Assembly: GCA_022450155.1 (NCBI GenBank)
Contig: JAKUQR010000006.1
Span: forward strand, 62,001 to 126,000
Direction: 5' to 3'
DNA length: 64,000 bases
From: Gammaproteobacteria bacterium
Lineage (GTDB): Bacteria; Pseudomonadota; Gammaproteobacteria; Arenicellales; UBA868
The notes beneath the pieces are model-generated. The model had not been told where the DNA came from and did no database searches. It saw nothing but the letters and a program-made list of their open reading frames with translations. Position 1 is the stretch's first letter. Each line of letters starts with the position of its first letter. A program made the position numbers and the translations under genes. Shown here piece after piece: positions 20,340 to 40,203 of this stretch.

Positions 20340-21755
20340 TCAACTGGCCTCGCGTGGGTCAATAGGCAGTTGATCGCGTACCGTAAAGTGTTCTTCGAGC
20401 AAGGCTGCAAAACTCAGTAGTTCATCTTCGCGTCTGGGTTTTGACAGGATCTGTAGACCCATGGGTAGACCTTCATCGGTAAAGCCGCAAGGCAGGCTGA
20501 CCACAGGGCAACCGGTCATGGTCAGTGCAAAGGTAATTGCAAACCAATCGATGTAAGTTTTACAGGGCGTGCCGTCGATTTCCGTAATAAAGGGCTTTTC
20601 TGATTCAAACGGCGCAATTGATGCGGCCGGACAGATTAGAAACTCATGAGTTTCAAAAAATTCAGCCATGTGCCGGGCCAGTGTCCACCTTACCCGCTCA
20701 GCCTCTATCAGGCGCTTAGGGGTCATGTTAAAACCCACATCAACGTTCTTCACGATATCGCTGAGAATCTCGTCTCGATGCTGCTGAACCAGTTCGCCTT
20801 TCAGGGTGGCTAGAAGAACACCTCTTAAGGTATGGAATGCATCCAGCACGCCGGTAAAGTCTGGGATGTCATCAGAGACATCGACGCCCAGTCGAGAAAT
20901 ACTGGCAGCCGCGTTTTCGGTGAGGGCCCTGATATCCTGGGCAACCGGCACGATTCCAAGATCGGTACTGAAGGCCACCCGTTCTGGCAACTGATGCTGT
21001 TTGATTGCCTGGGTAAAAGAATCGCAGTGATGATTAAAAGACAGAGGATCTTCAGTGCGCAGACCACATCCAGCATCGAGCATCAGCGCGACATCACCCA
21101 CTGATCTTCCCATGGGTCCTTCAACCCACAGTGTGTCAAACGTCAGGTTACCGTGACCCCGAGGTACTACGCCTGGACTGGGACGAAGTCCAACCACCGC
21201 ATTGAATGCTGCCGGGGTGCGCAGGCTGCCGCCCAGGTCGTTACCGGTAGCCAGCCAGACCTGGCCGCTCGCCAATGCCGCGGCGGAGCCTCCCGATGAG
21301 CCACCGGCGCTTCGACTAAGGTTCCAAGGATTGCGCGTTAGACCGTTTACCGGATTAAAGGTGTGACCACCCGCCCATTCCGGCACATTGGACTTGGCAA
21401 CCGGGTTGGCGCCATTCTTTTCCAGCACGGCGACGGTGACATCTGAGCGTTCAGGAATATAGTCCTTAAATATTGGCGAACCGTAGGTCGTACGTACACC
21501 CGCCACATCGTTGTAGTCCTTGACAGCGATTGGTAGACCACACAGGCTTTTCGGGTTTTGCCGGTGACTGGCTAGGTCCAGTGTTTCAGCACGTTCAATT
21601 GCACGGTCGAAACAATGGATGGGCAGTGCGTTGGTCTTGCCGTCAACCGCTTCGATGCGCGCAATGGCTGCCTGTACGGCTTCAACAGGGGATATCTCTC
21701 CGGATCGGAGCAGGCCGACGACATCGACCGCACTTTGTTTCCATAGCACACTCAT
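20340..21755 (-). CDS. Amidase (amidase signature family)
   Basis: A 471-residue amidase. The Ser-cisSer-Lys triad is visible: Lys in LPIAVKDYND (residue ~76), the Gly/Ser block SAGGSSGGSAAALASG (~150-165) and the nucleophile in GNDLGGSLRTPAAF (~175). Length is standard for the family, which hydrolyses amides to acid and ammonia or amine. It sits 84 bp downstream of a dialkylglycine-decarboxylase-like gene on the same strand. No signal peptide, so it acts in the cytoplasm. The substrate cannot be told. Confidence 0.87.
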   Translation of the reverse strand: MSVLWKQSAVDVVGLLRSGEISPVEAVQAAIARIEAVDGKTNALPIHCFDRAIERAETLDLASHRQNPKSLCGLPIAVKDYNDVAGVRTTYGSPIFKDYIPERSDVTVAVLEKNGANPVAKSNVPEWAGGHTFNPVNGLTRNPWNLSRSAGGSSGGSAAALASGQVWLATGNDLGGSLRTPAAFNAVVGLRPSPGVVPRGHGNLTFDTLWVEGPMGRSVGDVALMLDAGCGLRTEDPLSFNHHCDSFTQAIKQHQLPERVAFSTDLGIVPVAQDIRALTENAAASISRLGVDVSDDIPDFTGVLDAFHTLRGVLLATLKGELVQQHRDEILSDIVKNVDVGFNMTPKRLIEAERVRWTLARHMAEFFETHEFLICPAASIAPFESEKPFITEIDGTPCKTYIDWFAITFALTMTGCPVVSLPCGFTDEGLPMGLQILSKPRREDELLSFAALLEEHFTVRDQLPIDPREAS

Positions 21756-21839: not shown

Positions 21840-23183
21840 TCACTCTGCATTGGGGTCCTGGTTTTGAAGGTTAATGCACTTACTGGTAAGAGTTTCTAAG
21901 CCCTCGACAAGTGCCTGGTCTAGGATTGTGATTGCAAGGTCGATTTCATCGGTCGTTACCGTCAGAGGTGGTGCAATCCGCCAGACGGCACCGCGTTCCG
22001 GTCGGCGTCGGATGTTCATCGACAGGCCAAGTTCGAAGCAGCGTTCCGTAGTTACCGAGCCGAGCTGATGAAACGGTTGTCGGGTTTCCCGGTCCGTAAC
22101 CAGTTCAACGCCTAACAGTAGCCCTTCACCTCGAATGTCTCCGATAGATTCATGGCGCTGCTGAAGGTCCCGCAGTCTTTCTGTCAGATAGTTGCCCATT
22201 TTTATCGCTCTTGCGACGAGGGCTTCTTGTTGAATTGTCTGAAGAACAGCGAGGCCAACCGATGCGGGTAATGGGTCAGAGACGTGGCTGGTATAGAAGG
22301 TGAATCCCGCAGTATACGCTCGGTCTTCGATTTCAGGGCTGGTGACCGTCGCGGCTAGAGGCAGTCCGCCACCGAGGGTCTTGGATAGTGTCATGATGTC
22401 GGGAGTAACTTTGAGCTTGGTAGCCGAACAATTCGCACCTACCCGACCGAACGCCGTCTGCGCTTCGTCAAAAATTAGCAGCATACCGCGTTGATGGGCG
22501 GCGTCACGCAAGCAGTCAAAATACCCAGCAGGTGGCACGATAACACCACCCGCTGAAATAATGGGTTCAGCGATTATCGCTGCCGGCGCGCCGTCACTTG
22601 CCATGTCGAACATCTTCAGGCCAACTCTCAGGCACGACATGTCGCAGGTATCACGACAGTGTTCAATGGGACAGCGGTAAGCGTTCGGCTCTGGAATTAC
22701 ATGATTGCCAGGAACTTTGGGACCGTAACCCCGTCGGTCGCTTGCAAACGTCGCTGCAGCCGAACCTCCGGTCGTCCCATGCCAGGAACCGCCCAGAGCA
22801 ATGACCTCGTATCCGCCGGTGGCTAGTTTTGCGAGACGCAGAGCGGCTTCGTTGGATTCGCTGCCCGTACTCAGTAATAGGGATTTTCGCAGTGGTGATG
22901 GCAGCCAGTCTGCAAGCGCTTTAGCGAGTTTCACGACCGGCTCCGGAATCATCCCCGAGAACATGTGAAGTGCAGTGTCACAACTCTCCTTAATAGCTTT
23001 AGTGATCGCCGGATGGTTGTGGCCCAGTGTTGCGCACATCTGACCCGATGTGAAATCCAGGATCTCACGACCATCAGTGTCAGTGACAATACTCCCTTTT
23101 GCTGACCGGAAGAGGTTCGGAAAAGCATCACCGCCATATCGGATCAAAAGATCCTTGGCATCATCTTTCAGGCTGGAATCCAC
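21840..23183 (-). CDS. Class III PLP enzyme resembling 2,2-dialkylglycine decarboxylase
   Basis: A 447-residue class-III aminotransferase-fold enzyme. The PLP lysine is in DIMTLSKTLGGGLPLAA (about residue 280), with IFDEAQTAFGRVG supplying the Asp that binds the pyridine nitrogen and STGSESNEAALRLAK the phosphate loop. The stretch around FTFYTSHVSDPLPASVGLAV and the C-terminal RIAPPLTVTTDEIDLA resemble 2,2-dialkylglycine decarboxylase, which couples decarboxylation of an alpha,alpha-dialkyl amino acid to transamination of pyruvate. Other family activities (beta-alanine, taurine or omega-amino acid transaminase) are possible. The amidase lies downstream and the MttB-family gene upstream (123 bp), all on the minus strand. 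Confidence 0.8.
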   Translation of the reverse strand: MDSSLKDDAKDLLIRYGGDAFPNLFRSAKGSIVTDTDGREILDFTSGQMCATLGHNHPAITKAIKESCDTALHMFSGMIPEPVVKLAKALADWLPSPLRKSLLLSTGSESNEAALRLAKLATGGYEVIALGGSWHGTTGGSAAATFASDRRGYGPKVPGNHVIPEPNAYRCPIEHCRDTCDMSCLRVGLKMFDMASDGAPAAIIAEPIISAGGVIVPPAGYFDCLRDAAHQRGMLLIFDEAQTAFGRVGANCSATKLKVTPDIMTLSKTLGGGLPLAATVTSPEIEDRAYTAGFTFYTSHVSDPLPASVGLAVLQTIQQEALVARAIKMGNYLTERLRDLQQRHESIGDIRGEGLLLGVELVTDRETRQPFHQLGSVTTERCFELGLSMNIRRRPERGAVWRIAPPLTVTTDEIDLAITILDQALVEGLETLTSKCINLQNQDPNAE

Positions 23184-23306: not shown

Positions 23307-24836
23307 TCAGCGCAACTCCGATGGGATAGTGGCTTCTTTTTCGGTGATAAAAGTGGAGAGCGCTTCATCAATTGTCGGATCGAACTCTGGCTCTTCGTAC
23401 CGAGCCAACCACTGCTTTGCCTTGTCCAGCCCGACCTGTTCACTGTCTTTCCGGCCTTCATCATCCCACTGCTCGTAGGTGACGTTGTTCTGGGAGGGAA
23501 AAATAAATAGATTGGCCTTGCGGGTGTGTGCCGAACCCAGAAAATGACCGCCGGGTCCGACGTCCTTCACGGTTTCGAAAATCTCGTCCAGGTCATCAAA
23601 TCGACAGCCCTGGCAGAAATGGTAGAACGCATCGAGCTGTTCAAAATCAATAACTGTTTTTGCATAGCCCACCCCGAGTGTCCCTTCCATCATGCCGCCG
23701 GCCATGGTGATCCACTGTGCGCCGGCTAGAAAAGAAGGAAATAGACCCCACATCGAGTCGTAAGCGGCCTGCATGTCAGCCGACTTGGAGGTTGCACAAT
23801 TGGCGATCGCCCGGTGGGGTATGCCGTAACGCCGCGCCATCTGACCGGCGAGGAACTGGACGATGGCCGAATCCGGGCTACCGTGTACCGGCGCACCGGT
23901 GTTCAGCGCGACGGTCATTGCCGGTACACCAAAGAGCATGGGTGAGCCGGGTCGCACCAACTGAGCAAAAGCGATCGCCATCAGGGCTTCGGCCGTAACC
24001 ACTGCCATCGTTCCGACATTGCTGGCGGGTGTTGACGCTGCAGCCATGGAAAACGGTGAACACATGACCGCATGGTTGTTGGCGGCATAGACCTTGAGAG
24101 CGTCGAGCATGGTGGCATCCCACACCAGCGGCGAATTGGCGTTGATCAGCGATGTGGTGCAGCAGTTATTGGTGGCAAAGTCGTCGCCAAACACGATTTT
24201 GCACAGATCAATCGTATCCTCCGCGCGTTCGCGGGTAGTAACATTGCCGACGATCGGTTTATCCGAGTACTTGAACCCGCTGTAGGCCATATGCAGGTGC
24301 CGATGTGGCACGGGGATATCCATCGGCTCGACGACCGGTCCGCCGGCGATATGGACACTGGAGGCCATATGATTGAGTTTCTGCAGATTGTGCAGGTCTT
24401 CTAGCGTGGCCGGCCGGCGCTTGCCCTCCAGATCATAGATATAAGGGGGGCCATAAGAAGGCGACACCACCATCGAACGGCCGCCGACAGTCACCGTGCG
24501 CTGCGGATTGCGTGCGTGGTGCACGTACTCCGACGGTGCCTGATCGACCAGTGCTATGAGCGTGTCGCGGCTGACCCGAACCCGTTCGCCTTGTATCTCA
24601 GCATCGGTTTTCTTCCAGATCTCCAGTGATTCTGCATCGCGAAAATCAACGCCGATGTTTTCCACAATGCGCATGGCGAGATCATGAATCTGTTCAACGC
24701 CCTCGGCGTTGACCACTTCGTAAACCGGAATGTTCGGCACCAGGGCCGGTTGATGAATGATGGGTGCGTTCACCCGCGCTGCACGGCGTGCGGAGCGTCC
24801 GCCCTTTCGTGTGTGTTTTTCCGGCTGAAGCGTCAC
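23307..24836 (-). CDS. MttB-family corrinoid-dependent methyltransferase (no pyrrolysine)
   Basis: A 509-residue protein of the trimethylamine methyltransferase (MttB/COG5598) family. The N-terminal RRAARVNAPI and later blocks (EIWKKTDAEIQGERVRVSRD, HARNPQRTVTVGGRSMVV, MAGGMMEGTLGVGYAKT, HFLGSAHTRK) follow family order. The frame has no internal amber codon, so it belongs to the non-pyrrolysine group whose characterised members demethylate glycine betaine, proline betaine or carnitine to a corrinoid protein. No corrinoid protein (MttC-like) is visible nearby, so the methyl acceptor is unknown. It is the last gene of the long operon, 14 bp after the dimethylglycine-dehydrogenase-like gene. Confidence 0.85.
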   Translation of the reverse strand: MTLQPEKHTRKGGRSARRAARVNAPIIHQPALVPNIPVYEVVNAEGVEQIHDLAMRIVENIGVDFRDAESLEIWKKTDAEIQGERVRVSRDTLIALVDQAPSEYVHHARNPQRTVTVGGRSMVVSPSYGPPYIYDLEGKRRPATLEDLHNLQKLNHMASSVHIAGGPVVEPMDIPVPHRHLHMAYSGFKYSDKPIVGNVTTRERAEDTIDLCKIVFGDDFATNNCCTTSLINANSPLVWDATMLDALKVYAANNHAVMCSPFSMAAASTPASNVGTMAVVTAEALMAIAFAQLVRPGSPMLFGVPAMTVALNTGAPVHGSPDSAIVQFLAGQMARRYGIPHRAIANCATSKSADMQAAYDSMWGLFPSFLAGAQWITMAGGMMEGTLGVGYAKTVIDFEQLDAFYHFCQGCRFDDLDEIFETVKDVGPGGHFLGSAHTRKANLFIFPSQNNVTYEQWDDEGRKDSEQVGLDKAKQWLARYEEPEFDPTIDEALSTFITEKEATIPSELR

Positions 24837-24850
24837 TCGACTGGCCTGAT

Positions 24851-27295
24851 TTACGACCGGGGTCGCAGGTTGTCAGGATCGTAGGGCGAGTCCGTGATCA
24901 CTGTTGCCGGACAGCGACGTTCCAGTACCTGGACTTCCAGCTTTGTCCCCGGTTGGGTGTGTTCAATGGCAACGAATGCCATGGACAGGCAGTTGCCCAC
25001 GTGATGCGACGTCGCGCCTGAAGTCACCCGGCCGACCAGTTGACCATCCTGGTAAACCGCTTCATTCATGTAAGCGTCGGCATCTACCGTCTCGACCTGC
25101 AGTGTCACCAGGCGTTGGCCAAGGTCCTGTTTCTGCTGATCGAGCAGGGCATCCTTGCCGACAAAGATATCCTTGTCGAACTTGATGAAGCGATCAAGAC
25201 CCGACTCCAGTGCGGTGTGCTCAACGTCCATGTCGCGGTACATGGCGCGGTAGGATTTCTCCAGTCGCAGAGACTCTATCGCGCGGTAACCGCAGTGTTT
25301 TAGGCCAAGCTCACTTCCAGCTTTGGTGATCTCGTCAAACAGGTGTAGGTTGTAGTTGATCGGGTGATAGAGTTCCCATCCCAGTTCGCCTTCGTAGTTG
25401 ACCCGCATCAGTCGCACGTCTGAAGCGAGTCCCGCTGTGACGGTCTGGCTGGTCATCCAGGGGAAAGCGGTATTCGATAGGTCTGCATCGACCAGTTTCT
25501 CTAAAAGTGCTCGGGCGTTCGGACCCACCACAGTAAAGCCGCCCCGTTCAAGCGTTACATTGTACAGGTTGACACTGCCATCTTCGGGAAGCGACTTTTC
25601 CAGTACATCAAAGTCATGGCGTTCGCCACGTGGCGTACCAATCAGATAGAACAAATCATCATCCAGTCGGGTGACCGTGAATTCTGCGCGGACCGTGCCT
25701 TTGTAGGTGAGAAAGTGTGCCAGTACTGTGCCGCCGATCCTGCGCGGCATGCGATTGGCAAGAATGCGATTGAGCCAGGTCTCAACGCCGGGTCCTTTGG
25801 CTTCGTACTTGCCCATCGGTGTCATTTCAAACAGACCCACTGCTTCACGTACCGCACGGCATTCGGCACCCACGTGCGGCATGGAGTTGAATACCCGGTA
25901 ACTCCATTCATCGCGGGGTTCTACGCCTTCCGGGGCAAACCACAACGGCACTTCCCAGCCGTAGATCGATCCCCAGGCCGCACCGGCCTCAGTCAGCCGA
26001 TCGTAGCAGGGCATGGTTTTAGCCGGCCGGGCGGCGGGCCATTCATAGCCCGGGTAATGAATGCCGAAATTGTGACCGAAGGCCTCCTTGTTCTTGACCC
26101 CGGTATAGACCTTGTTGGCGTAGTCACCAAACCGTCTCGGATCGACTTCGGACAGGTCGACATGGGGTTCGCCATCGATGATCCAGTTAACGAGTTCATG
26201 GCCCAGACCACCGCCCATCAGGATGCCGCCCGTAAAACCTTCAGCGAGCCACAGGTTTTGTTTGCCCCAGGCGGGTCCGCACAGCGGCAGGTTGTCCGGT
26301 GTGCCACAGATCGGTCCGCGCACGTTGGACTGAATACCGGCTTCTCCAAGCGCCGGCACCAGCTCGAGTGCGGCGGCCCAATTGTCTTCAACCGCAGCCA
26401 TGTCTTCCGGCAGCAGGTCTGCGCCGAACCACTCGGGCACACTGTCCCGGGCAAAATGCTCCAGGCGGTCGGGTTGTTCATAAGGGCCAAACATCAGCCC
26501 GTCCCGTTCTTCCCGCACATAGCCGTTGATCGCTTCATTACGCAGGACCGGCAGCTCGGGCAGTCCTTGGTCTTGTCGTTCACGGATCTGGGGTACGGTT
26601 TGGGTAACCCAGTACTGGTGCAGTAAGGGAAAGCAGGGCAGTTCAAGGCCCAGCATTCGTGCGGTGTGCTGGGCGTAATTGCCAGTGGCGGTCACCACGT
26701 GCTCGCAGACGATGTCCCCCTGCGCTGAGACGACCTTCCACTCGCCTGAGCGCAGCCGTTCAATCGCCGTCACGTCCGTCTCCCGGTAGATGTTCGCCCC
26801 CAGTTGCCGGGCTCCCTTGGCCAGGGCCTGGGTCACATCAGCCGGTGCGATGTGGCCGTCATCGGGGTTATAGACCGCACCCAGCAGTTTGTCGGTTCGG
26901 GTCATCAACGGCCACAGATCAATGGCTTGTTCTGGTGTCAGAATCTCTGCCCGCACACCCTGGGTTTCTGCAATGGCAGCGTAGTTCAGGTACTCGTCCA
27001 TACGGTCTGGTGTTTCGGCAATACGCAGCTGGCCGCACTTGTGCCAGCCGATGCCCTGGCCTGTCTCTGCTTCCAGGTCTTCGTAGATCTCGATGGTCTT
27101 CTTGATGAGCCGGCCGAATTTGTAGGAAAACGAATAGATCGGGATCAGGCCGGCGGCGTGCCATGTAGAGCCCGCAGTCAGTTCGGTGCGCTCGAGCAGG
27201 CAGGCGTCTGTCCAGCCGCGGTGCGCAAGACTGTACAGCACATTGACACCAACACAGCCGCCGCCGACGACAACAACCCGGGCATGTGATTGCAT
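24851..27295 (-). CDS. Dimethylglycine/sarcosine dehydrogenase-like flavoprotein with GcvT domains
   Basis: An 814-residue two-part enzyme. The N-terminal ~370 residues are a DAO-type FAD domain with VVVVGGGCVGVNVLY; ELTAGSTWHAAGL contains the His (H46) at the position that binds FAD covalently in dimethylglycine dehydrogenase. After a linker (FAO-type, ~380-440) the C-terminal half is GcvT plus GcvT-C (MTPMGKYEAKGPGVETWLNR, LMRVNYEGELGWELY, GYRAIESLRLEKSYRAM), which would pass the formaldehyde unit to tetrahydrofolate. Such enzymes oxidise dimethylglycine, sarcosine or other N-methyl amines. It sits between the DddQ-like cupin (19 bp) and the MttB gene (14 bp). Confidence 0.87.
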   Translation of the reverse strand: MQSHARVVVVGGGCVGVNVLYSLAHRGWTDACLLERTELTAGSTWHAAGLIPIYSFSYKFGRLIKKTIEIYEDLEAETGQGIGWHKCGQLRIAETPDRMDEYLNYAAIAETQGVRAEILTPEQAIDLWPLMTRTDKLLGAVYNPDDGHIAPADVTQALAKGARQLGANIYRETDVTAIERLRSGEWKVVSAQGDIVCEHVVTATGNYAQHTARMLGLELPCFPLLHQYWVTQTVPQIRERQDQGLPELPVLRNEAINGYVREERDGLMFGPYEQPDRLEHFARDSVPEWFGADLLPEDMAAVEDNWAAALELVPALGEAGIQSNVRGPICGTPDNLPLCGPAWGKQNLWLAEGFTGGILMGGGLGHELVNWIIDGEPHVDLSEVDPRRFGDYANKVYTGVKNKEAFGHNFGIHYPGYEWPAARPAKTMPCYDRLTEAGAAWGSIYGWEVPLWFAPEGVEPRDEWSYRVFNSMPHVGAECRAVREAVGLFEMTPMGKYEAKGPGVETWLNRILANRMPRRIGGTVLAHFLTYKGTVRAEFTVTRLDDDLFYLIGTPRGERHDFDVLEKSLPEDGSVNLYNVTLERGGFTVVGPNARALLEKLVDADLSNTAFPWMTSQTVTAGLASDVRLMRVNYEGELGWELYHPINYNLHLFDEITKAGSELGLKHCGYRAIESLRLEKSYRAMYRDMDVEHTALESGLDRFIKFDKDIFVGKDALLDQQKQDLGQRLVTLQVETVDADAYMNEAVYQDGQLVGRVTSGATSHHVGNCLSMAFVAIEHTQPGTKLEVQVLERRCPATVITDSPYDPDNLRPRS

Positions 27296-27314
27296 GACTA
27301 ATTGTCCTTAAGAA

Positions 27315-27914
27315 TCAGCAGAAACGGTAGTGATCTAGGGATACGTCATCGCCGGTCCATGAATAGACTGTCAGCGCCGGTGTGCTATCCGTTCGCATAG
27401 CATGGGTCATCATGGATGGAATATCAATAATGTCGCCAGCCCCTTTTGCCTGGTAGGGTCCACCATCCAGCGACCAGCTGCCACAGCCGGCCAGAACGAT
27501 ATACACCTCATCCGCCGGGTGAACATGATCGGCATAGTCGATACCTGAGATCAAGGCGAATAGACCGACCCGGAAACTCCGGTGCTTGACCAGACCTGTC
27601 GGGCCGATCAGCTGACTGTAGGGCGTGTGTGACCGGGCGGATTCATGCCACTGAAGTTCTTTGGCCACTGCTATGATTTCGCAAACCGATGGCATCTGCG
27701 ATTCGCTTTGCAACAGTTTTAGGATCGGACCTGGAAGGTCGCACAGTGTGTCGAGACTACTTATCGGCTGGACCGGTTCGGTGCTGATTGTGGTATCCAC
27801 CGATTGGAGCAGATCGACGGTGCGGCGACAGGCATCACTGGACCCACGGTCGAATTCCGCCGTGATGGCAGTCAGCAGGGTATCAACAGCAGTTTGAATC
27901 GATTCAGGACGCAT
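27315..27914 (-). CDS. Cupin resembling DMSP lyase (DddQ-like)
   Basis: A 199-residue single-domain cupin. The C-terminal half contains Y-x2-H-x-H-x-A-x-E-x-Y-x2-L-x-G-x3-W (YADHVHPADEVYIVLAGCGSW), the signature of the DddL/DddQ/DddW DMSP-lyase group, with likely metal ligands H130, H132, E136 and H171 and catalytic Tyr138; the later DIIDIPSMMTHAMRT also fits. Length equals DddQ. Such enzymes split DMSP to dimethylsulfide and acrylate. ATG at 27912-27914 was preferred to a TTG two codons earlier. It lies within an operon of betaine-demethylation-like genes, so a lyase for a different onium compound cannot be excluded. Confidence 0.7.
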   Translation of the reverse strand: MRPESIQTAVDTLLTAITAEFDRGSSDACRRTVDLLQSVDTTISTEPVQPISSLDTLCDLPGPILKLLQSESQMPSVCEIIAVAKELQWHESARSHTPYSQLIGPTGLVKHRSFRVGLFALISGIDYADHVHPADEVYIVLAGCGSWSLDGGPYQAKGAGDIIDIPSMMTHAMRTDSTPALTVYSWTGDDVSLDHYRFC

Positions 27915-27967
27915 ATGCAACGTGAAGCTAGGCTGGGGATTACGCAGATGTTACGCTCAGCAATACC

Positions 27968-29503
27968 TCACGATCCAGCCACATCGCCCACCCGGCGCAC
28001 ACGAACGCGAAGACTGTTGCCGGGCAGATAAGACAGTGGTATATCTTCGGTTTCGATGGTTGTCAGCGTGGCTTCAGCCGCACCCGCCGCGAGGGCCCGC
28101 GATGTCGCCAGCTGAGTGGCTTGTTCGATCGCTTCCGTGCGCGAGAGATCCCGAAAGATCTGGTCGACCTCGCCGGATACCTGTGCAATGGCCGCACCCA
28201 CTGCGTTGGCACAGTCGCCATGGGTGACATGATGCAGGTCGGACACACCCCTGAGTCGGTCGGGTACCAGAAACGCACCCCCGCCGACCGCGATCAGTGG
28301 TGTATCGCCGGCGCGGGTTTTAACCCGGTCGACGGCTTCTTCCAGGAGCCGTTCACATTCAGTCAGTACTGCAGATTGTGTGTCGGTGTCGATGCTGTGC
28401 AGAAGTTCTGCATTACCGAGGTCGAGCAGGCCGCGGGCGACGGCGATGTCTGTTGCCGTCAGTTGACTGCCGCCAAAAATAAGCCCGTCATGTATCAGCT
28501 GGTAGCCGACCGACAGCGGGCCGACCTGCAGTGGATCAAGGCAGACATGACTGCCGCCGCCCAGTCCGAATGACAGCAATTCCGGCATCCGGAACAGAGT
28601 GCGCACACCACCGATCTCGACAACCGTGTTGGACTCCCGCGGGAAACCACTGACCAGTTGGCCCACATCGGTTGTGGTGCCGCCAACATCGACTACGATG
28701 GCATCGTCTATGCTGGATAGATAGGCAGCGCCGCGCATGGAGTTGGTGGCGCCGGAGGCAAAACTGTAAACCGGAAACCGGATCGCTGTTGCGGCCTCGA
28801 CCACCGTACCGTCGTTCTGGGTGATATACAGCGGTGTGTTGATACCGACTTGATGGAGTGCTGCCTCAAATGCGTTGATGGTCTGAACTGCCAGACCGCT
28901 CAATGCTGCGTTCAGCAGCGCAACATTTTCCCGCTCCAGCAACCCGATCCGACCCAGGTCGGACGAAAGCGTGATCACGGCGCTGGGAATTTCGTCCGCA
29001 ACGATGGCGGCGGCACGTTGTTCGTGGTCGGCATCAATGGGGGAAAAGATCGACGCTATGGCAATCGCGGTCAGACCCTGGTCACGCATTTCAGTAGCCG
29101 CCTGACGAATGGCGTCCTCATCCAGGGGTAGGATGGGCCGACCGTCGTATTCATGACCACCTTCGACCGACCACACACCTCCCTTGGCGATGTTTGCGAG
29201 GTCACCCGGCCAGTCACAGAACGGCATCAGGCTGCTGCTGACTGGATCACCAATACGCAGCGCGCCGACTGGCGACAGAGAACGGCGCTGCACGATCGCA
29301 TTCACAAAATGTGTGGTGCCGATCATCACGCTGTCAACATCGCCCTGACCGGCAGGTTCAGCACGCAGTGCTGACAGAGCTGCGATGATGCCGCCGGTCA
29401 CGTCTTCGCTGGTGGGCGCTTTCACCGCGCGCAGGACTTCACCGTTCTTGATCAGGACTGCATCGGTGTTGGTGCCGCCAACGTCGATGCCGATGCGTCT
29501 CAT
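27968..29503 (-). CDS. Hydantoinase A / oxoprolinase-type protein (HyuA)
   Basis: A 511-residue ASKHA-fold protein of the hydantoinase/oxoprolinase family. It has two nucleotide-binding signatures, RIGIDVGGTNTDAVL at the N-terminus and VVDVGGTTTDVGQL in the middle, plus FGLGGGSHVCLD and IAVGGGAFLVPD. It has the short form that pairs with DUF917 proteins; HyuA enzymes open cyclic amides with ATP. The start ATG overlaps the DUF917 stop by 4 bp (ATGA at 29500-29503), so the two are translationally coupled. No HyuB is present. It is in the middle of the long operon, between the AroM-DUF917 pair and the cupin. Confidence 0.85.
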   Translation of the reverse strand: MRRIGIDVGGTNTDAVLIKNGEVLRAVKAPTSEDVTGGIIAALSALRAEPAGQGDVDSVMIGTTHFVNAIVQRRSLSPVGALRIGDPVSSSLMPFCDWPGDLANIAKGGVWSVEGGHEYDGRPILPLDEDAIRQAATEMRDQGLTAIAIASIFSPIDADHEQRAAAIVADEIPSAVITLSSDLGRIGLLERENVALLNAALSGLAVQTINAFEAALHQVGINTPLYITQNDGTVVEAATAIRFPVYSFASGATNSMRGAAYLSSIDDAIVVDVGGTTTDVGQLVSGFPRESNTVVEIGGVRTLFRMPELLSFGLGGGSHVCLDPLQVGPLSVGYQLIHDGLIFGGSQLTATDIAVARGLLDLGNAELLHSIDTDTQSAVLTECERLLEEAVDRVKTRAGDTPLIAVGGGAFLVPDRLRGVSDLHHVTHGDCANAVGAAIAQVSGEVDQIFRDLSRTEAIEQATQLATSRALAAGAAEATLTTIETEDIPLSYLPGNSLRVRVRRVGDVAGS

Positions 29504-30585
29504 GACACAAAGACAGAGGTATAGGGGATGTCGTAGCCGAACGCGCTGGGGCCAACCAGTTCGAGTCCCCGCGCTGAGAGAAACACCTCAGGCGGGGGTA
29601 GGGCAATCACGCTGACGCGCTGTCCGTAACGGATCGTTTCGGTGCCGATGGCTTCCCCGGAGTCGCTGTTCAGTACACAGATCAGATCCGGGGACGTGAC
29701 CCGCGGTGTGCCATCCTGCCAGGCAACGACCCACTCATTCTGGAAGCTGATCTGCATCAGTATGCCCTGGGAGTCATCCAGACCCTCCAGCGTGACCTGT
29801 CCACGCAAGAAACCTTCCGTGGTTCTTCGTTCAATGTCAGTCACCTTCCCGCTGTAGAGTCTTTTTCCCGGTTCGACACGAAGGATGGCTTCGATCGGAT
29901 CGTGATGCAGTTGTTGCGCGTTACGCACGGCCGAGCCAATTTCAATGGCCTTGGTGGTGGTATACGGAATCGCCCAGCGCTTGATTTCAGCGCCGCTTCG
30001 CGGTGCCTTGCAGGTTGCGGCGACCGATCCGTACTCAGTACAGATCTTGCGGCTGACGCGCTCCATCCATTTCCAGGAGGGTACTTTGTAGACGACTGAT
30101 TCCACTCCCCGCGGATCGATACTGGTCAGCGGGTAGGGTCTTAAGTCGCCGACCGCGAAACTGGTCATTTGTGCTTCTGGGTAAGCACGGCCCATACAGT
30201 CGGCATCGACGACGGGCCGGTCCAGGTGCGCGGCAGCCATGAGCGGCTGGATGGCATTGCCACCGCCGATCTCCAGGGACATGATGGCCTGAAAGTCGAC
30301 GCCGGTGATCTCTTCCATGAGCGCGACGGCACGGGCCATATTGCGGCTGTCCGTCAGCCGTTCCTGACCAACCAGCGGCGCCCCCTGGTTGGAGACGACC
30401 GCGATCGTGTCGGTATCGCCCAGGGAGTCCGGAGAGATTAGACGGACGCGATGGCCTGCGGCATACAGCTGGCGCATGTTCAACAGACCCAGGTAAGGGC
30501 TGCCGCCGCCGCCCGTACCGAGGATCCACGCACCCACCGCCAACGACTCAATATCGTCCAGACTGAGTTCTCGTGTTTCGGTCAT
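29500..30585 (-). CDS. DUF917 family protein (S-methyl thiohydantoin desulfurase-type domain)
   Basis: A 361-residue protein with the DUF917 signature LAVGAWILGTGGGGSPYLG near the N-terminus, MSLEIGGGNAIQPLMAAA and DADCMGRAYPEAQMTSFA. The family is now often labelled S-methyl thiohydantoin desulfurase after one characterised member; most members are uncharacterised and lie beside hydantoinase genes, as here. It overlaps the AroM gene upstream and the HyuA gene downstream by four bases each, a rigid three-gene block. Likely role: processing of a cyclic hydantoin- or thiohydantoin-like intermediate before ring opening by HyuA (inference). Confidence 0.82.
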   Translation of the reverse strand: MTETRELSLDDIESLAVGAWILGTGGGGSPYLGLLNMRQLYAAGHRVRLISPDSLGDTDTIAVVSNQGAPLVGQERLTDSRNMARAVALMEEITGVDFQAIMSLEIGGGNAIQPLMAAAHLDRPVVDADCMGRAYPEAQMTSFAVGDLRPYPLTSIDPRGVESVVYKVPSWKWMERVSRKICTEYGSVAATCKAPRSGAEIKRWAIPYTTTKAIEIGSAVRNAQQLHHDPIEAILRVEPGKRLYSGKVTDIERRTTEGFLRGQVTLEGLDDSQGILMQISFQNEWVVAWQDGTPRVTSPDLICVLNSDSGEAIGTETIRYGQRVSVIALPPPEVFLSARGLELVGPSAFGYDIPYTSVFVS

Positions 30586-31256
30586 TCCAGCAGTCCCCGG
30601 ATGGCGCGGCCGGTGACCGTGATGGCCAGCAGCGTGGGCACACCCACAATGGCCGAGGCGATGGCTTTGCTCTCGGGGGTATAACTCATACAGTCCATCG
30701 CGACGAGGTCCGGTTTTAGGTGTGCCAGGCGTTCGGCGGCCGCTCGTGTGTGGGTATCATCCGCACTGGGGCGCAAAGCTTCGGCGACCACCTCCACACC
30801 AGTGCGCTGCCACTTCGCCGCCAGCTTGTTTGATTGTTCGGGCAGCGGGATGAGCAGTCCCAGCCGCCCGCGCGGGAGCAAACTCTCGGCAAGCGCATTG
30901 AGAATTCGCGAGGGAAAGATCACACCGGTATCACCGTCCATCGGAGGAAACTCGCCAGTGCAGGCAAAGACCAGCGTATCGGCGCCATCGCCACGAAGTT
31001 GTTGCAGTGTGTTGGACGCCCGTTCAATCGCGTGGGTTTTTGAGATTTTGACGTCAACCCCGCCGCGTAGCCGGGTGTACAGCGTATCGGCACCATCCAT
31101 CGGTGGGCGCTGGGCGATCGGGTCATCGGTCAGGTTATCCAGACAGCCCCGCAACAGGATACGGGTGGACGAAGGTGTCTGCTCGGAAAACAGTGCGGCA
31201 ATATCATCGCGCGGTGCCTGCCCGATCGTGGCAATGCCCAACGTGCGTTCGGTCAT
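30582..31256 (-). CDS. AroM family protein (Asp/Glu racemase-like fold)
   Basis: A 224-residue protein of the AroM family, named from the aro region of enterobacteria but without a known reaction. It starts TERTLGIATIGQAPRDDIA, with the family block LVFACTGEFPPM (a Cys like the first catalytic Cys of the racemase fold) and VAMDCMSYTPESK (second Cys). The pair of cysteines suggests an amino-acid-racemase-like or hydantoin-racemase-like mechanism. The ATG at 31254-31256 was chosen; a GTG lies directly before it. Its stop overlaps the DUF917 start. The AroM-DUF917-HyuA set is probably one functional unit. Confidence 0.8.
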   Translation of the reverse strand: MTERTLGIATIGQAPRDDIAALFSEQTPSSTRILLRGCLDNLTDDPIAQRPPMDGADTLYTRLRGGVDVKISKTHAIERASNTLQQLRGDGADTLVFACTGEFPPMDGDTGVIFPSRILNALAESLLPRGRLGLLIPLPEQSNKLAAKWQRTGVEVVAEALRPSADDTHTRAAAERLAHLKPDLVAMDCMSYTPESKAIASAIVGVPTLLAITVTGRAIRGLLE

Positions 31257-31271
31257 CACCGAGACAGGGGT

Positions 31272-32003
31272 TCAGGGCAGGGGCAGTCGTGCCAGTCGTC
31301 CGCCATCGACCGTGTAGATCTGACCTGTGACAAACGAGGCGTCATCTGAGACCAGCCAGGCGACCAGTGATGCGACTTCTTCGGGTGTGCCGGTACGGCC
31401 CACCGGGTGGATACGGCCGAGCTCCTCGCGGAAGCGCGCCGGGTCCGGCATCGACTCGATGAAGTCGGTATTGAGTTCGGTATCAATCCAGCCCGGTGCG
31501 ACGGCGTTACAGCGGATGCCGTCCGGCCCGTGATCGACTGCAACAGCGCGTGTTAGCGCATGCAGGCCCGCTTTGGACGCACAGTAGGCTGGGTGGCGTG
31601 CATTCGAGCCCAGGCCTTCGATGGAGCCGATGTTCACAATACGGCCGCCGTCTCGAAGATAGGGCAGTGCCTGTTTGATCAGAAGAAAAGGTGCCCGAAG
31701 ATTAACGGCCAGCGTTCGGTCCCAGTCCTCAACCGACATTTTTTCGACAGTCGCCTCCAGCATTATGCCCGCGTTGTTAATCAGAATATCGAGCTGTCCA
31801 GCGTGTTCAGTGACGTGCTCAATAATCTGGCGGGGGGCGTCGGTGTCGGCGAGATCGGCGCAGATGCTGTCAAATTCAGGGTCGTCCTGCCGTTGTGCGG
31901 TAAACACCTGAATTCCCTGGCTAGCCAGATTCCGGGCACAGGCCTGTCCGATGCCGCTGCGCCCGCCCGTAACCAACGCAACCTGTTTACGGTCTGTCGT
32001 CAT
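31272..32003 (-). CDS. Short-chain dehydrogenase/reductase, copy A of the operon
   Basis: A 243-residue classical SDR with NAD(P) loop TGGRSGIGQ (residue ~13), NNAGIM, IGSIEG at the catalytic serine, Y-x3-K in YCASKAGLH and an end [13 protein letters not shown]. Its start overlaps the stop of the next SDR by four bases and AroM begins 15 bp after it, placing it firmly in the operon. With three SDRs in a row the pathway probably contains several alcohol/ketone steps, or the paralogues act on related stereoisomers. The substrate is unknown. Confidence 0.85.
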
Positions 32004-32731
32004 GTCACTGGCTTTCCGCCATTGACTTCAACCAGCGCGCCGCACATGTAGCGCGACTGATCAGAGACGAGAAACAGCACCACATCGGCGATCTCTTCCG
32101 GTTGGGCGATATGCCCCAGCGGTACGGACCGATTGAGATCATCAATGGCTTTTTCAGGATCGATGCCGCGGGCACTGAATCCCGAGCGCAGCATGGGCGT
32201 GTTCACTTCGTTGGGGCAGACGGCGTTCACACGGATGCCCTGGTGGGCGTGGTCATGGCCCAGGCACTGCGTCATCGATGCGAGTGCTGCTTTAGACATG
32301 CAGTAGAGCGGATGATTCGGGCCAGGCCGTACACCCCAGCAGGATGAGACATTGACAATGGCACCACCGCCATTGGCAGCCAGGATCGGTATGGCCGCCC
32401 GGCAGATACGGAAAGGTGCTTCGACGTTGACAGCCATAGACTGAACGTAGTCATCGTCCGTTGAGTCAGTAATAACACCGCGGCGGATGATCCCGGCGTT
32501 GTTGATCACAATATCAAGACCGCCCAGGGCTTCGCGAGTTTTTGCGGGCAGTGCATCGCAGTGCGCGGAATCGGTAAGGTCCCCAAGGATAGCGACATCA
32601 CACGGGATACCTTCGAGCTGAATATCTGTGGCCGCAATAGCCGCACCCGCGTCGGTCAGCGCCCTGACGATGGCCTGGCCAATACCCCCGGCCGCGCCGG
32701 TGACCAGTGCTTTTTTTCCAGATAATGTCAT
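32000..32731 (-). CDS. Short-chain dehydrogenase/reductase, copy B of the operon
   Basis: A 243-residue [12 protein letters not shown] is the cofactor loop, NNAGIIRRG follows, VSSCWG supplies the serine region and YCMSKAAL the Tyr and Lys. AATDIQLEG after the second beta strand (Asp) points to NAD rather than NADP. It overlaps SDR copy A by four bases and lies 54 bp downstream of SDR copy C, the widest gap but one in this part of the operon. Sequence differs clearly from its neighbours, so they are old paralogues and not a recent tandem duplication. Confidence 0.85.
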
Positions 32732-32785
32732 CGATGTATTTTGGGCGTGCTCACACCTATCAGGACATTTTGGGAGGACACCAGC

Positions 32786-33568
32786 CTAAAATAGTCCCGG
32801 TTGCAGCGGTGAGGCAGCCACGAGCCCGCCATCCACGGTCATCGACTGGCCGGTCATGAACGCACTCTGGTCTGAGGCCAGCCACACGGCAGCGGCGGCA
32901 ATGTCTTCCGGCTGACCCAGCCGGCCCACCGCATGCCGGGCCAGTGCGTCCGCTTTGGATGCGGCTGGATTTCTGGCGAGATCGAAGGCGGCATCAATCA
33001 TGCCGGTTGTAATCCAGCCCGGGCAGATGGTGTTGCAGCGGATACCTTCGGCACCGTGGTCTACCGCAATCGATCGACTCAGACCTGCGACAAACGCTTT
33101 GGATGCGTTGTATAGCGCCATGGTCGGGTCCGCATGCTCGCCACTGATCGAGCCGATGTTGATAATCGAACCACCGCCTGAAGCCGTCATGATCGGTATG
33201 AAGCGCCGGCAAACCAGAAACACCCCCCGCGCGTTGGTGCCCATCAGCTGGTCCCAGTCCGCATCGGTGCTGTCGACCACGGTTTTTTCGAGCTGAACTC
33301 CGGCGTTGTTGACGAGGATGTCGATGTCGCCGAGTTGATCGACCGCAAATTCAGCCAGTGTGTCGACCTCATCTCGCTCACTGACATCAGCCTGCAGCCA
33401 GTGAACCGCGTCCGGCAGATCGCTATCGGCTGCGTGTCGGCTGCTGGTCACCACCTGTGCGCCTTCGGCGACAAATTTGTCCACGATGGCGCGGCCGATC
33501 CCACGACTGCCGCCGGTGACCACGGCGGTCTTGTTCTGCAGTTGTCCGGTACCAGTCGGGTAATTCAT
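32786..33568 (-). CDS. Short-chain dehydrogenase/reductase, copy C of the operon
   Basis: A 260-residue SDR with TGGSRGIGRA, VNNAGVQLE, IGSISGEHAD and the Y-x3-K pair in YNASKAFV. TSSRHAADS after beta 2 (Arg) suggests NADP preference. I start it at the second ATG (33566-33568), because AGGG lies about ten bases upstream and the ATG overlaps the stop of the Rieske gene (ATGA), giving coupling; an ATG three codons earlier (33577) is also possible. It ends MTVDGGLVAASPLQPGLF. It probably acts directly after the Rieske step. Confidence 0.85.
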   Translation of the reverse strand: MNYPTGTGQLQNKTAVVTGGSRGIGRAIVDKFVAEGAQVVTSSRHAADSDLPDAVHWLQADVSERDEVDTLAEFAVDQLGDIDILVNNAGVQLEKTVVDSTDADWDQLMGTNARGVFLVCRRFIPIMTASGGGSIINIGSISGEHADPTMALYNASKAFVAGLSRSIAVDHGAEGIRCNTICPGWITTGMIDAAFDLARNPAASKADALARHAVGRLGQPEDIAAAAVWLASDQSAFMTGQSMTVDGGLVAASPLQPGLF

Positions 33569-34710
33569 GGGCTGCATGCCCTGCGATAGGCATCGAGTAC
33601 AAGGCCGTGAAAATGATGGACCCCATGTTCACTCAAACCGGACCCCGTGGGATCCACCACATAACGACCCTGATTGAAGGCTGGAGTCTGCATGCCGCGC
33701 TGTACGCTTTCGACCAGCCCGATGTCTTCAGGCTGCAGTACGTCATCAATGAATTGGATCGCTTGCATTTCAGCATCGGTGGGTGTGTCGGTTTCAAAAA
33801 AGAAATCAAATTCCTCATAGGTCTCTCCCGCATTGACCGGAATAAAGCGCCATACCATGAAGTTACCTCTGCCTGGGTAACGCATCAGGGCCATGTTGGG
33901 CCAAAGATACCAGACCGCGTGGTCGGTCACACTCACATCGTCGACGCCATAGGCCTGGTTTTCGGTGCGGCCGGCTTTGGCCATGTGGCTGGAATAGATG
34001 CCGTGGGTTTTGACTTTGTAGGTATCCATCTCTACTAGTGTCACAAAATCTTTGTGAGCCACGGGGCAGTGATAGCACTCCAGAAAATTGTCGACGATGG
34101 CTTTCCAGTTGGCTTTCAGGTGATAGGTCAAACGGTGTGCAAAGGTCAGCTCTGCGAGATCCGGTGCATAGGTCATTATTTCCTGGGCGAGGTCACCGCT
34201 TTGCTCAGCCAGTGCTGAAGCGTCAGGGCTGAGATTGACAAAAATCAGGTGACAGAAGAGCTCGACCTGGATGGGTTGCAGGCGAATGTCACTGTCCCGG
34301 AAGTTTTCGATCAGTTCACTGCGCCGCGCGCGCCGCAGCGATCCATTGAGATCGTAAACCCAGCCGTGGTACGGGCACGTGATGGTGCTGGTGATGCCTT
34401 CACCCTGCAGCAGTTCATGTCCCCGGTGCTGACAGACGTTGTAAAAAGCCTGGAGGACACCGCCGGTATCGCGGGCCACAAAGATGCTCTGGCCCTGTAG
34501 GGATGCGGTGACATAGTTACCGGGTTGGCGCAGCTTTTCTTCGTGACACACGAACTGCCAGGTCCGGTGGAATATTTGCTCGCGTTCAGCAGTCAGAAAA
34601 CGGTCATCGCGGTAGCAGTCACTGTGGATCGAACTCGAGCGCGCGGCGACCGGATCATAGCCCCGTCCTATATGATCGATATCAGCGCACGTCAGTGGGG
34701 TTGCGGTCAT
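33565..34710 (-). CDS. Rieske oxygenase alpha subunit, quaternary-amine type (GbcA/CntA-like) no. 1
   Basis: A 381-residue Rieske non-heme iron oxygenase. The [2Fe-2S] site is C-x-H in CQHRGHELLQG and C-x2-H in CPYHGWVYDL. The catalytic domain has two His in DNFLECYHCPVAHKD and an Asp in PEDIGLVES. The residue that bridges the two metal sites is Glu (NFLE-CYH) rather than Asp, as in carnitine oxygenase CntA and glycine-betaine demethylase, and ECYHC is the usual motif of that group. It overlaps the GNAT gene upstream and the SDR downstream by four bases. No reductase component is present, so electrons must come from a shared reductase. Likely reaction: oxidative N-demethylation or cleavage of a trimethylammonium compound. 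Confidence 0.87.
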   Translation of the reverse strand: MTATPLTCADIDHIGRGYDPVAARSSSIHSDCYRDDRFLTAEREQIFHRTWQFVCHEEKLRQPGNYVTASLQGQSIFVARDTGGVLQAFYNVCQHRGHELLQGEGITSTITCPYHGWVYDLNGSLRRARRSELIENFRDSDIRLQPIQVELFCHLIFVNLSPDASALAEQSGDLAQEIMTYAPDLAELTFAHRLTYHLKANWKAIVDNFLECYHCPVAHKDFVTLVEMDTYKVKTHGIYSSHMAKAGRTENQAYGVDDVSVTDHAVWYLWPNMALMRYPGRGNFMVWRFIPVNAGETYEEFDFFFETDTPTDAEMQAIQFIDDVLQPEDIGLVESVQRGMQTPAFNQGRYVVDPTGSGLSEHGVHHFHGLVLDAYRRACSP

Positions 34711-35414
34711 CCTCTGGCCTTGAGCAGCGGGGCGGTCAGTGTTGACAGCCGGGTTTTTTGATTGCCGTCATGATCAAAATTGTCTGGATCAAGCCACTGT
34801 TCAAAAGCTAGCTTGAGATCAGGCCATTCCCGATCGATGGTGGCATACCAGGCCGTGTCACGGTTGCGTTGTTTATACACGGTGGCCTGACGGAAGATGC
34901 CTTCATAAGACAGGCCCAGTCTCTGGGCCGCCGTGCGGGATGGCGCATTGAGCGTATCGCATTTCCACTCATAACGCCGGTAGCCCAGTTCAAATGCCTG
35001 TTTCATCATCAGGTACATCGCTTCAGTCGCGGCCGGCTTTCTTTGCAGTAGCGGGGAGTAGTGGATATGGCCGACTTCGATCGTCCCCGCTAGTGGCGTG
35101 ATTCTGAGGTAACTGGCAATCCCGACGGCGGTCTGGCTTTCACTGTCGATGATGGCAAAGAAAAATGGATCATCCAGCTTGGCCATACCACTCAGCCAGG
35201 TGTGGAACTCGACATAGTTCTCGAATGGGCCCTGCGGCAGGTAGGTCCAGTTGTGACCTTCGGTATCGAGCGCATGCGAATCGAACAGCGATTGTCCATC
35301 GTGGTCCGCGTCAAGACGTTCGAGCTGGCAGTACCGTCCGATCATCGGTTCTGCAGGCGGCCTGACCGGTGGGGTCCAGTCGTCTACGGCAAAACCAATT
35401 GGTTGAATGGTCAT
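34707..35414 (-). CDS. GNAT acetyltransferase (RimJ/RimL type)
   Basis: A 235-residue GNAT protein. The RimL-like core is seen in AVGIASYLRITPLAGTIEVGHIHYSP (split over the core strands), the acetyl-CoA loop region SPLLQRKPAATEAMYLMMKQA, and WKCDTLNAPSRTAAQRLGLSYEGIFR, a pattern found in RimJ/RimL N-acetyltransferases. It is the first gene of the long operon and its stop overlaps the Rieske start (ATGA at 34707-34710). It may acetylate an amine intermediate or play a protective role; nothing more can be said. Confidence 0.8.
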   Translation of the reverse strand: MTIQPIGFAVDDWTPPVRPPAEPMIGRYCQLERLDADHDGQSLFDSHALDTEGHNWTYLPQGPFENYVEFHTWLSGMAKLDDPFFFAIIDSESQTAVGIASYLRITPLAGTIEVGHIHYSPLLQRKPAATEAMYLMMKQAFELGYRRYEWKCDTLNAPSRTAAQRLGLSYEGIFRQATVYKQRNRDTAWYATIDREWPDLKLAFEQWLDPDNFDHDGNQKTRLSTLTAPLLKARG

Positions 35415-35471: not shown

Positions 35472-36632
35472 TCACGACTCTGGTACCGATACGACTGATT
35501 CAAAGATCAAACGAGCAAAATGCTGTTGAACCGGGTCCCAGTAGGGCGATAGCACGCCACCATCAAACCCGTCGGATAAGCGCCCAGCCTGCATGCGCTC
35601 CAGGATGCTAATGTCTTCATTGTTGAGATCATGCCAATTTTTGATGACCACGTTGCGCGCGTTCGTGTATTGATCACTATTCGCGCCGTCGCCGACAAAA
35701 TAAAGTCCGATCGTTTCTTTGCATCGATCAGGTCCTGATGGTGCCGCAACAAAGACGGCGAGCTGGTCCGGAAAGATCTCAAATGCAAAATTAGGGAACA
35801 ATACATACCAGTCCCCGCGCCTTTTCTTGTCACTCGGAAGGTTCGGAAAGTATGGCAATCCCTCCCCGCGGGCAGGATCCGTTTTCTTGAATTCGTAGCC
35901 GCATGAAAGGATGTGATTTTCGAATGTCGGCGGACTTCGTTCCGCCATAGCGACAAATGAATTAAGCCAGGGATGGCAGGAGAAGACGTGATAAGGCTCG
36001 ATGAAATTTTCGATTGCCAGTTTCCAGTTTGCGCGAATATCGAATTCCAGTTCGGTAGCAAAATGCAAGGCGCTAAGATCGTATCCATCAAGTTTATTGA
36101 CTATGGGCTCAATATGAGCGGAAAAATTGCCGGCATTCCCATCTAAGTTAACAAACACCCAGTCGTTCCAGGTTTCACATCGAATCTCGATCAAGTTTGA
36201 CTGCTGGCATTGCGCAGGATTAACGTCGTGTTTGCCACCACCGAAAAAATGAGGCCGTGACAACAATTTTCCGCTGAGGCTGTAGCTCCATGAATGGTTG
36301 GGACAGACGATCGTGCGGCATTTGGATTTCCATTCGTCGACAAGTATCGCACCCCGATGCCGGCAGACGTTGTGAAAGGCTCTGATAGCGGTTTCATCGC
36401 TTTTAGTCAGCAGGATGGGTTGCCCGGCCACCTCCACGGGTAACAGGTCTCCAACATCCTGGAGTTTGTGAGCAAAGGCAGCGAACACCCAGGTCTTTTT
36501 AAACAGTGAGTTCTGCTCCAGCTTGAAAAACGCCGAATCAGTGTAGGCAGCATTAGGCAGGCCAGACCCCTCAGCCGTGGGTTCAGTGATGCGTGTCCAT
36601 AGATCTGGATCAAACCAATGATCGTTACCCAC
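35472..36632 (-). CDS. Rieske oxygenase alpha subunit no. 2 (EPYH subtype)
   Basis: A 386-residue Rieske oxygenase. The cluster ligands are CRHRGAILVDEW and CPNHSWSYSL (Asn replaces the usual Tyr before the His). The iron site is NFIEPYHVFSCHPW with a later Asp in NNEDISILERMQAG. The bridging residue is Glu. The EPYHV motif sets it, with the protein at 52652-53782, apart from the ECYHC pair. It lies 57 bp upstream of the GNAT gene and 90 bp downstream of the Old-Yellow-Enzyme-type demethylase on the same strand, so the pair probably removes successive methyl groups from one betaine (inference). Confidence 0.86.
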   Translation of the reverse strand: MGNDHWFDPDLWTRITEPTAEGSGLPNAAYTDSAFFKLEQNSLFKKTWVFAAFAHKLQDVGDLLPVEVAGQPILLTKSDETAIRAFHNVCRHRGAILVDEWKSKCRTIVCPNHSWSYSLSGKLLSRPHFFGGGKHDVNPAQCQQSNLIEIRCETWNDWVFVNLDGNAGNFSAHIEPIVNKLDGYDLSALHFATELEFDIRANWKLAIENFIEPYHVFSCHPWLNSFVAMAERSPPTFENHILSCGYEFKKTDPARGEGLPYFPNLPSDKKRRGDWYVLFPNFAFEIFPDQLAVFVAAPSGPDRCKETIGLYFVGDGANSDQYTNARNVVIKNWHDLNNEDISILERMQAGRLSDGFDGGVLSPYWDPVQQHFARLIFESVVSVPES

Positions 36633-38729: not shown

Positions 38730-38777
38730 TTCTGTGAGTTTACTTCCCAAAAGCAGGTCTGAAGATAGGCAGCAGGA

Positions 38778-40197: not shown

Positions 40198-40203
40198 ACA
40201 GCG

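Follow-up and report, generated by a model that had tools for sequence, protein, structure and literature searches.

The window analysed here is a stretch of 64,000 nucleotides from a Gammaproteobacteria bacterium of the order Arenicellales, and forms part of a 152,306-base contig in a 3.2 Mb genome (G000) that is 95.5% complete. According to the list of open reading frames and their family annotation, positions 23307-35414 carry eleven co-directional genes on the minus strand, running from a GNAT acetyltransferase to an MttB-superfamily methyltransferase. An earlier note on this DNA had counted twelve genes; the families it named were correct (GNAT, Rieske, three short-chain dehydrogenases (SDRs), AroM, DUF917, HyuA, a DddQ-like cupin, a protein resembling dimethylglycine dehydrogenase (DMGDH) and MttB). 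From first to last, the genes are:

34707-35414, minus strand: GNAT acetyltransferase (Pfam PF13302/PF00583), the first gene of the block as originally delimited
33565-34710, minus strand: Rieske1, a quaternary-amine-type Rieske oxygenase; nearest solved relative CntA; ECYHCPVAH at residue 211
32786-33577, minus strand: SDR1, a short-chain dehydrogenase that elsewhere accompanies Rieske1
32000-32731, minus strand: SDR2, a short-chain dehydrogenase that pairs with SDR3
31272-32003, minus strand: SDR3, a short-chain dehydrogenase that pairs with SDR2
30582-31259, minus strand: AroM, racemase-like (PF07302, 197 bits), with conserved Cys 100 and Cys 190
29500-30585, minus strand: DUF917 / S-Me-THD-like protein (PF20906 and PF06032)
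27968-29503, minus strand: short HyuA-type protein (PF05378, PF01968) with no HyuB partner in the window
27315-27920, minus strand: DddQ-like cupin (PF16867) with Y129, H132, H134, E138, Y140 and H173
24851-27295, minus strand: DMGDH-like flavoprotein with a folate-binding domain, from family and structure matches
23307-24836, minus strand: MttB-superfamily methyltransferase, glycine-betaine-methyltransferase-like (PF06253, 549 bits)

Layout and conservation of the operon

The junctions from GNAT to MttB measure, in order, -4, -13, +54, -4, +12, -4, -4, +47, +19 and +14 bp, negative values being overlaps. Those of the three-gene cassette AroM-DUF917-HyuA are +12 bp (SDR3/AroM), -4 bp (AroM/DUF917), -4 bp (DUF917/HyuA) and +47 bp (HyuA/cupin). 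The earlier description of 4-bp overlaps or gaps of 14-54 bp was right about the tight packing and overlooked the 13-bp overlap and the 12-bp gap. A consensus scan gave no minus-strand promoter-like or terminator-like match at the junctions and placed minus-strand terminator-like matches inside genes. The scan is weakly informative, with fewer promoter-like matches than in shuffled sequences (5 versus 10.0) and more terminator-like ones (25 versus 16.5).

The limits given earlier enclose a packed block, but its end points probably lie elsewhere: two genes on the same strand precede GNAT at 57 and 90 bp. The genes flanking the block on this strand are:

36723-38750, minus strand: OYE/FadH-type FMN-FAD oxidoreductase, 90 bp from Rieske2, probably the first gene of the extended operon
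35472-36632, minus strand: Rieske2, 57 bp upstream of GNAT, a probable upstream extension
21840-23183, minus strand: class III aminotransferase, 123 bp downstream of MttB, before the amidase
20340-21755, minus strand: amidase, 84 bp after the aminotransferase

The operon probably extends upstream to Rieske2 and the OYE/FadH-type gene. The position of Rieske2 upstream of the block is repeated in G003, a genome of the host's genus, and in G010, where the contig end cuts Rieske2; the OYE gene adjoins Rieske2 in G003 and in a further genome, G021.

DUF917 was matched in six of 61 related genomes, with the window's own genome counted. Contig ends truncate the matches in G003 and G014, while those of G009 are fragments or paralogues at 39% identity. 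With a threshold of E 1e-60, only the own genome gave a match among 369 genomes drawn from the class, and no DUF917 match was found in another genome of the host's genus (G001, 86% complete). Within this genus, the gene order is kept on two partial contigs, that of G003 covering the genes upstream from the start of DUF917 as far as OYE and further, and that of G002 the genes from AroM to the amidase. The DNA of both contigs is about 12-14% divergent from the window.

The operon order was also observed on two contigs binned to other genera, G010 (13.5 kb) and G014 (3.8 kb). Between the contigs of G010 and G002 the identity is 98.5%, and no match to rpoB was found in G010. Between the G014 contig and the window it is 84.7%, compared with 71.5% for the rpoB stretches of the same two genomes. 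Judging from these identities, both contigs may be misbinned or transferred, and they do not count as independent support because they are too similar to the host's genus. A conservation count of five genomes was downgraded after these checks; as far as sequence comparison goes, the securely conserved order covers one genus in three assemblies, two of them partial. Within the genus, the conserved neighbourhood envisaged in the earlier note does recur; beyond it, no securely binned contig showed the complete set.

On the G002 and G010 contigs the amidase directly follows MttB without the aminotransferase in between, so that the aminotransferase was either gained in the window's lineage or lost in the other. 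In G003 (L014, 3105-4850), GNAT and Rieske1 form a single frame of 581 amino acids instead of the two overlapping genes of the window, which is either an assembly error or a fusion.

Separate occurrence of the oxygenase and demethylation modules

Module A consists of GNAT, Rieske1 and SDR1. The nearest solved structure to Rieske1 is the carnitine monooxygenase CntA (248.9 bits over residues 33-373), and its identity to carnitine monooxygenases is about 37%. It carries the Rieske cluster motif at residue 93, and its ECYHCPVAH stretch at 211 holds a Cys-x-x-Cys pair and the bridging Glu by the mononuclear iron. Rieske3, a third such enzyme in the window, is built likewise, and Rieske2 lacks the Cys pair. 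Both Rieske1 and Rieske3 share the CxH...CxxH cluster and the E-C-x-H-C...H site with group V enzymes such as CntA and the stachydrine demethylase Stc2. A published study notes the Cys-x-x-Cys pair in some group V members (PMC10952381).

Rieske1 was matched at E 1e-30 in 49 of the 61 relatives. Twenty regions around matches of 58-80% identity, several of them cut by contig ends, were compared with a reference set, and regions from which reference sequences were taken are part of the counts. SDR1 (55-72%) was present in 16 regions, another SDR, like the neighbour of Rieske1 in G007, in 17, BKACE in nine, GNAT adjoining Rieske1 in six and a carnitine-type dehydrogenase in four, while AroM, DUF917 and HyuA were found in none of the 20. 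Three of 37 plasmid records with a Rieske1 match were examined. All three loci carry Rieske1 (56-58%), the other SDR, BKACE, an aldehyde dehydrogenase, SDR1 and the carnitine-type dehydrogenase, as well as betaine or choline ABC genes. By annotation and general knowledge, the neighbourhoods of Rieske1 elsewhere appear to encode carnitine-type pathways. At four loci (L102, L107, L111 and L122) choline-sulfatase-like genes, 51% or more identical to that of L107, lie near Rieske1, and sulfated quaternary amines may be the substrates there.

Module B comprises SDR2, SDR3, DMGDH and MttB. For the MttB protein, the match to 4yyc scores 449 bits, those to glycine betaine methyltransferases (2qne, 9yce) 339 bits and that to the trimethylamine methyltransferase 7xcl 80 bits. 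The DMGDH-like protein reaches 597.7 bits to dimethylglycine dehydrogenase, presumably represented by mammalian entries, versus 318.4 bits to dimethylglycine oxidase. In these similarities module B is like the terminal, demethylating part of glycine betaine catabolism. A single PF02607 protein is encoded in the genome, in the same run as DUF1638, pterin-binding and RACo genes. By family, this run (L177) comprises a stand-alone B12-binding protein of 244 amino acids, DUF1638, a Pterin_bind protein of 303 amino acids and a RACo protein of 695 amino acids. Partners of these kinds have been described for Ruegeria in a recent report (PMC12478193). With the MtgBCD system of Ruegeria pomeroyi, our genome has in common an MttB-superfamily protein, the B12, DUF1638, pterin-binding and RACo genes and a DMGDH-type next step. 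In contrast to MtgBCD, MttB and DMGDH here share an operon with Rieske, SDR, cupin and AroM-DUF917-HyuA genes, and the MtgC/MtgD-type genes are on another contig (C3).

A match to SDR3 at E 1e-75 was found in 22 of 145 relatives, and 12 regions were taken from the 17 of these other than G000, G003, G007, G010 and G014. SDR2 is adjacent in 11, DMGDH (79-87%) comes next in five, one of them cut short, and MttB of 76-80% follows in four; in two regions an MttB of 41-42% is nearby. As a unit, SDR2-SDR3-DMGDH-MttB recurs in another genus, in four genomes (DMGDH 79-80%, MttB 76-80%). None of the 12 regions carries Rieske1, AroM, DUF917, HyuA or the cupin. The gene preceding SDR2 was annotated in one region (L157) and belongs to the FA_desaturase family.

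The AroM-DUF917-HyuA cassette and the cupin

Scanning one genome per species for DUF917 gave 65 loci, or 62 after three Arenicellales-type loci were set aside. HyuA lies directly downstream in 55 of the 62 (58 with room for it) and AroM directly upstream in 37 (59 with room). DUF917 is 60% or more identical (60-74%) in 49 loci, of which 37 have AroM directly upstream, mostly at just 38-46% identity. None of the other operon families was found at 45% identity or more over half the length in any of the 62 loci; SDR matches of 32-39% occur in some. A HyuB-like match is present in eight of the 65 loci, and five HyuB-type queries gave none in the window. A tree of DUF917, rooted at its midpoint purely for drawing, has a group of 51 rows, nearly all from Alphaproteobacteria, with 100/100 support, to which the three Arenicellales-type rows belong. 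The tree and the patchy spread suggest a sideways acquisition of this module C, if not its direction. Composition was rejected as a mark of transfer, because SDR1 and SDR3 (0.60-0.61) have much the same GC (guanine plus cytosine) fraction as the cassette (0.60-0.62), and the codon usage of the cassette is not unusual. The own genome has fourteen hydantoinase-B matches over the Pfam cut-off in its 3.2 Mb. At L012 (G009:C94) and the Haloferax loci L068, L069 and L080, three DUF917 matches surround one short HyuA.

In AroM, which we take to be a member of the Asp/Glu racemase superfamily, C100 and C190, presumably the catalytic pair, are conserved in 97% or more of the 41 rows compared. HyuA is 511 amino acids long, and its residues 1-360 align with residues 1-382 of N-methylhydantoinase (92.6 bits). 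It has this alignment of the N-terminal part in common with the ATP-dependent HyuA/HyuB hydantoinases, but it is short and has no HyuB next to it. DUF917 may be its partner in place of HyuB. The near-invariant polar residues of DUF917 are carboxylates, amides and basic residues, with no His or Cys. Its model (predicted local distance difference test, pLDDT, 91.9) gave two fold matches at E 0.001 or better, both of them chains of the unassigned structure 2o3i, so no function follows from the fold.

Pfam now calls DUF917 S-Me-THD, and NCBIfam names some of its members thiohydantoin desulfurases, which brings up ergothioneine or thiohydantoin degradation with DUF917 as the desulfurase, the chemistry considered in the earlier note. 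The only two NCBIfam matches of the protein are indeed to the S-methyl thiohydantoin desulfurase (NF058532) and the thiohydantoin desulfurase (NF058529), but at 101.6 and 91.9 bits they are far under the cut-offs of 450 and 440. The genome has a urocanase-family gene, a point in favour, but this sole match is on another contig and none is in the block. We rejected this reading on the DUF917 scores and consider it barely credible.

Elsewhere, the cassette keeps different company. At a Bradyrhizobium locus (L045) it is preceded by an IclR regulator, a permease, a binding protein and an ATPase, and the clusters of this regulator and binding protein recur in 18 and 25 of the 65 loci, respectively. 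Four of 131 plasmids with a DUF917 match were examined: ABC genes are close in three and further away in one, their annotation is of the peptide or dipeptide/nickel type in two, and one plasmid shows no AroM. Thus the Alphaproteobacterial cassettes share the AroM, DUF917 and HyuA families with our operon, but stand by transporter genes and without betaine genes, whereas here they are part of what is probably a betaine operon. A 2024 paper places AroM in the Asp/Glu racemase superfamily, reports DUF917 and AroM as enriched in cyclodipeptide-oxidase gene clusters and calls them not experimentally characterised (PMC11055893). A cyclodipeptide oxidase was sought by the nearest cassette relative (L018) and rejected: a nitroreductase is encoded there, but its two larger neighbours belong to other families; open reading frames too short for gene calls were not covered.

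The block might hold two functions on one transcript, with an unrelated cassette for imported cyclic amides or cyclic dipeptides inserted into a betaine demethylation operon and no substrates shared. The 62 of 62 outside loci without the other families, the ABC genes and the cyclodipeptide-oxidase context fit this. However, the cassette is joined to its surroundings by 4-bp overlaps and gaps of 12 and 47 bp, its upstream junction is retained in G003 and its downstream junction in G002 despite their divergence, and no ABC transporter gene is among the annotated neighbours. We regard this explanation as a serious one, albeit on balance unlikely. The single pathway proposed in the earlier note may or may not include the cassette, whose relatives stand apart from the other operon families and without which the other operon genes also occur.

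A further point against two separate functions comes from G007, which belongs to another genus. Its order is GNAT-Rieske1-SDR-SDR1-PhyH-SDR2-SDR3-alpha/beta hydrolase-cupin-DMGDH, followed by the contig end, and no DUF917 match was found in this genome (85% complete). The rpoB stretch is 74.9% and the operon 73.5% identical to those of the host, as expected of vertical descent. Modules A and B and the cupin hence occur joined without the cassette, and the hydrolase occupies its slot, which hints at a hydrolytic step by the cassette. The pair of host genus and G007 offers a testable handle on the role of the cassette.

The cupin aligns with the DddQ structures 5cu1 and 4la2 across the metal-site residues and keeps the DddQ-type Tyr, His, Glu, Tyr, His set, which we assume to be metal-site and catalytic residues as in DddQ. 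Relatives at E 1e-12 were found in 13 of 145 genomes, and outside the host genus, the G010 contig and G007 their identity is 30-44%; matches in 37 plasmid records are all under 60%. The cupin was discarded as an anchor, since the three distant loci examined (L166-L168) hold no other operon genes of note, apart from an HpcH-like gene in L167. Degradation of dimethylsulfoniopropionate (DMSP) or another sulfonium compound, with the cupin as the key lyase, would agree with this alignment and with two genes in the same window: DmdA, a DMSP demethylase (18161-19267, minus strand; 560.7 bits against an NCBIfam cut-off of 410), which adjoins an HpcH/HpaI aldolase gene, and an M24-family DddP-like protein (44660-45892, minus strand; 281.6 bits, below the DddP cut-off of 600). 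The cupin, however, scores just 32-43 bits against the DddQ structures, and the closest matches of Rieske1, MttB and DMGDH are enzymes that act on methylated nitrogen compounds. We consider a DMSP pathway very improbable.

A proposed route for betaine catabolism, and neighbouring genes

It seems more likely than not, from the similarities and neighbourhoods described above, that the block is a modular catabolic operon for a quaternary-ammonium osmolyte (betaine) which ends in corrinoid- and folate-linked demethylation. The earlier note had proposed that a quaternary amine is demethylated and its methyl groups pass to a corrinoid and folate. In outline this agrees with the likeness of Rieske1 to CntA and of MttB to glycine betaine methyltransferases, the DMGDH match and the run of B12, DUF1638, pterin-binding and RACo genes. 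From the families, their order, the modularity and the methyl-transfer partner genes, we infer the following reactions, substrate type and action of the cassette. Together with a reductase whose gene lies elsewhere, Rieske1, and perhaps also Rieske2, would oxidise the position adjacent to the N-methylated nitrogen of the substrate. SDR1, SDR2 and SDR3 would oxidise or invert the resulting alcohols, and shortening of the chain would lead towards glycine betaine or something closely analogous. MttB would then transfer one methyl group to a stand-alone corrinoid protein of the MtgC type, from which it would reach tetrahydrofolate via an MtgD-type protein. DMGDH would oxidise a second methyl group to methylene-tetrahydrofolate and leave a sarcosine-like product. 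The cassette, probably acquired sideways, might racemise and hydrolyse an intermediate by ATP-dependent opening of an amide or lactam; that it does so in the pathway of the operon is at best an even bet. In a bolder version, the short HyuA would work with AroM and DUF917 as an ATP-dependent racemase-amidohydrolase that has no HyuB, its place as hydrolytic partner being taken by DUF917. In this operon the enzyme would open an N-methylated lactam or imide derived from a marine betaine, as part of an undescribed pathway. We put this forward tentatively and think it unlikely in its entirety.

Several observations weigh against the betaine pathway. A CntB-like Rieske reductase is absent from the operon genes, and the candidates elsewhere in the own genome are weak (one of 31%, one partial of 41%). 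BKACE and the carnitine-type dehydrogenase, present in neighbourhoods of Rieske1, are missing from the block. The best match of MttB, 4yyc, was deposited as a putative trimethylamine methyltransferase, and there are four further MttB genes in the genome (five in all), so the MttB of the operon may take another amine. MtgC and MtgD were assigned on family alone. As the cassette adjoins transporter genes of its own elsewhere, it need not serve the pathway of the operon, and the slot swap, seen at one locus in G007, could be a coincidence. Finally, among 315 plasmid records with an SDR2 match three were examined, all from Rhodobacterales. In these, SDR2-SDR3 (65-70%) follow an MttB (39-41%) and an MR_MLE gene, and one of them also carries DHDPS, aldehyde dehydrogenase and FAD oxidoreductase genes. 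Such neighbours suggest a compound resembling (hydroxy)proline or a sugar acid instead of carnitine. On a fourth plasmid, chosen for its MttB (47%), MR_MLE, an OYE-like gene and a gene for a B12-binding protein accompany MttB.

Methylated nitrogen osmolytes are important marine sources of carbon and nitrogen. No description of an operon with this gene set was found among the matches listed in the open-licence literature. If the betaine pathway is true, the operon ties the recently described corrinoid route of glycine betaine to Rieske chemistry and to the DUF917 and AroM families.

A divergent run on the plus strand (39088-43528) encodes Rieske3, an MR_MLE protein, a zinc alcohol dehydrogenase and an adenosine 5'-phosphosulfate kinase. 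The MR_MLE protein reaches 309 of 500 bits with the cis-3-hydroxyproline dehydratase model and 505 bits with 3eez. In G021 (L108), Rieske2, OYE and Rieske3 are clustered, there together with an arylmalonate-decarboxylase-like gene.

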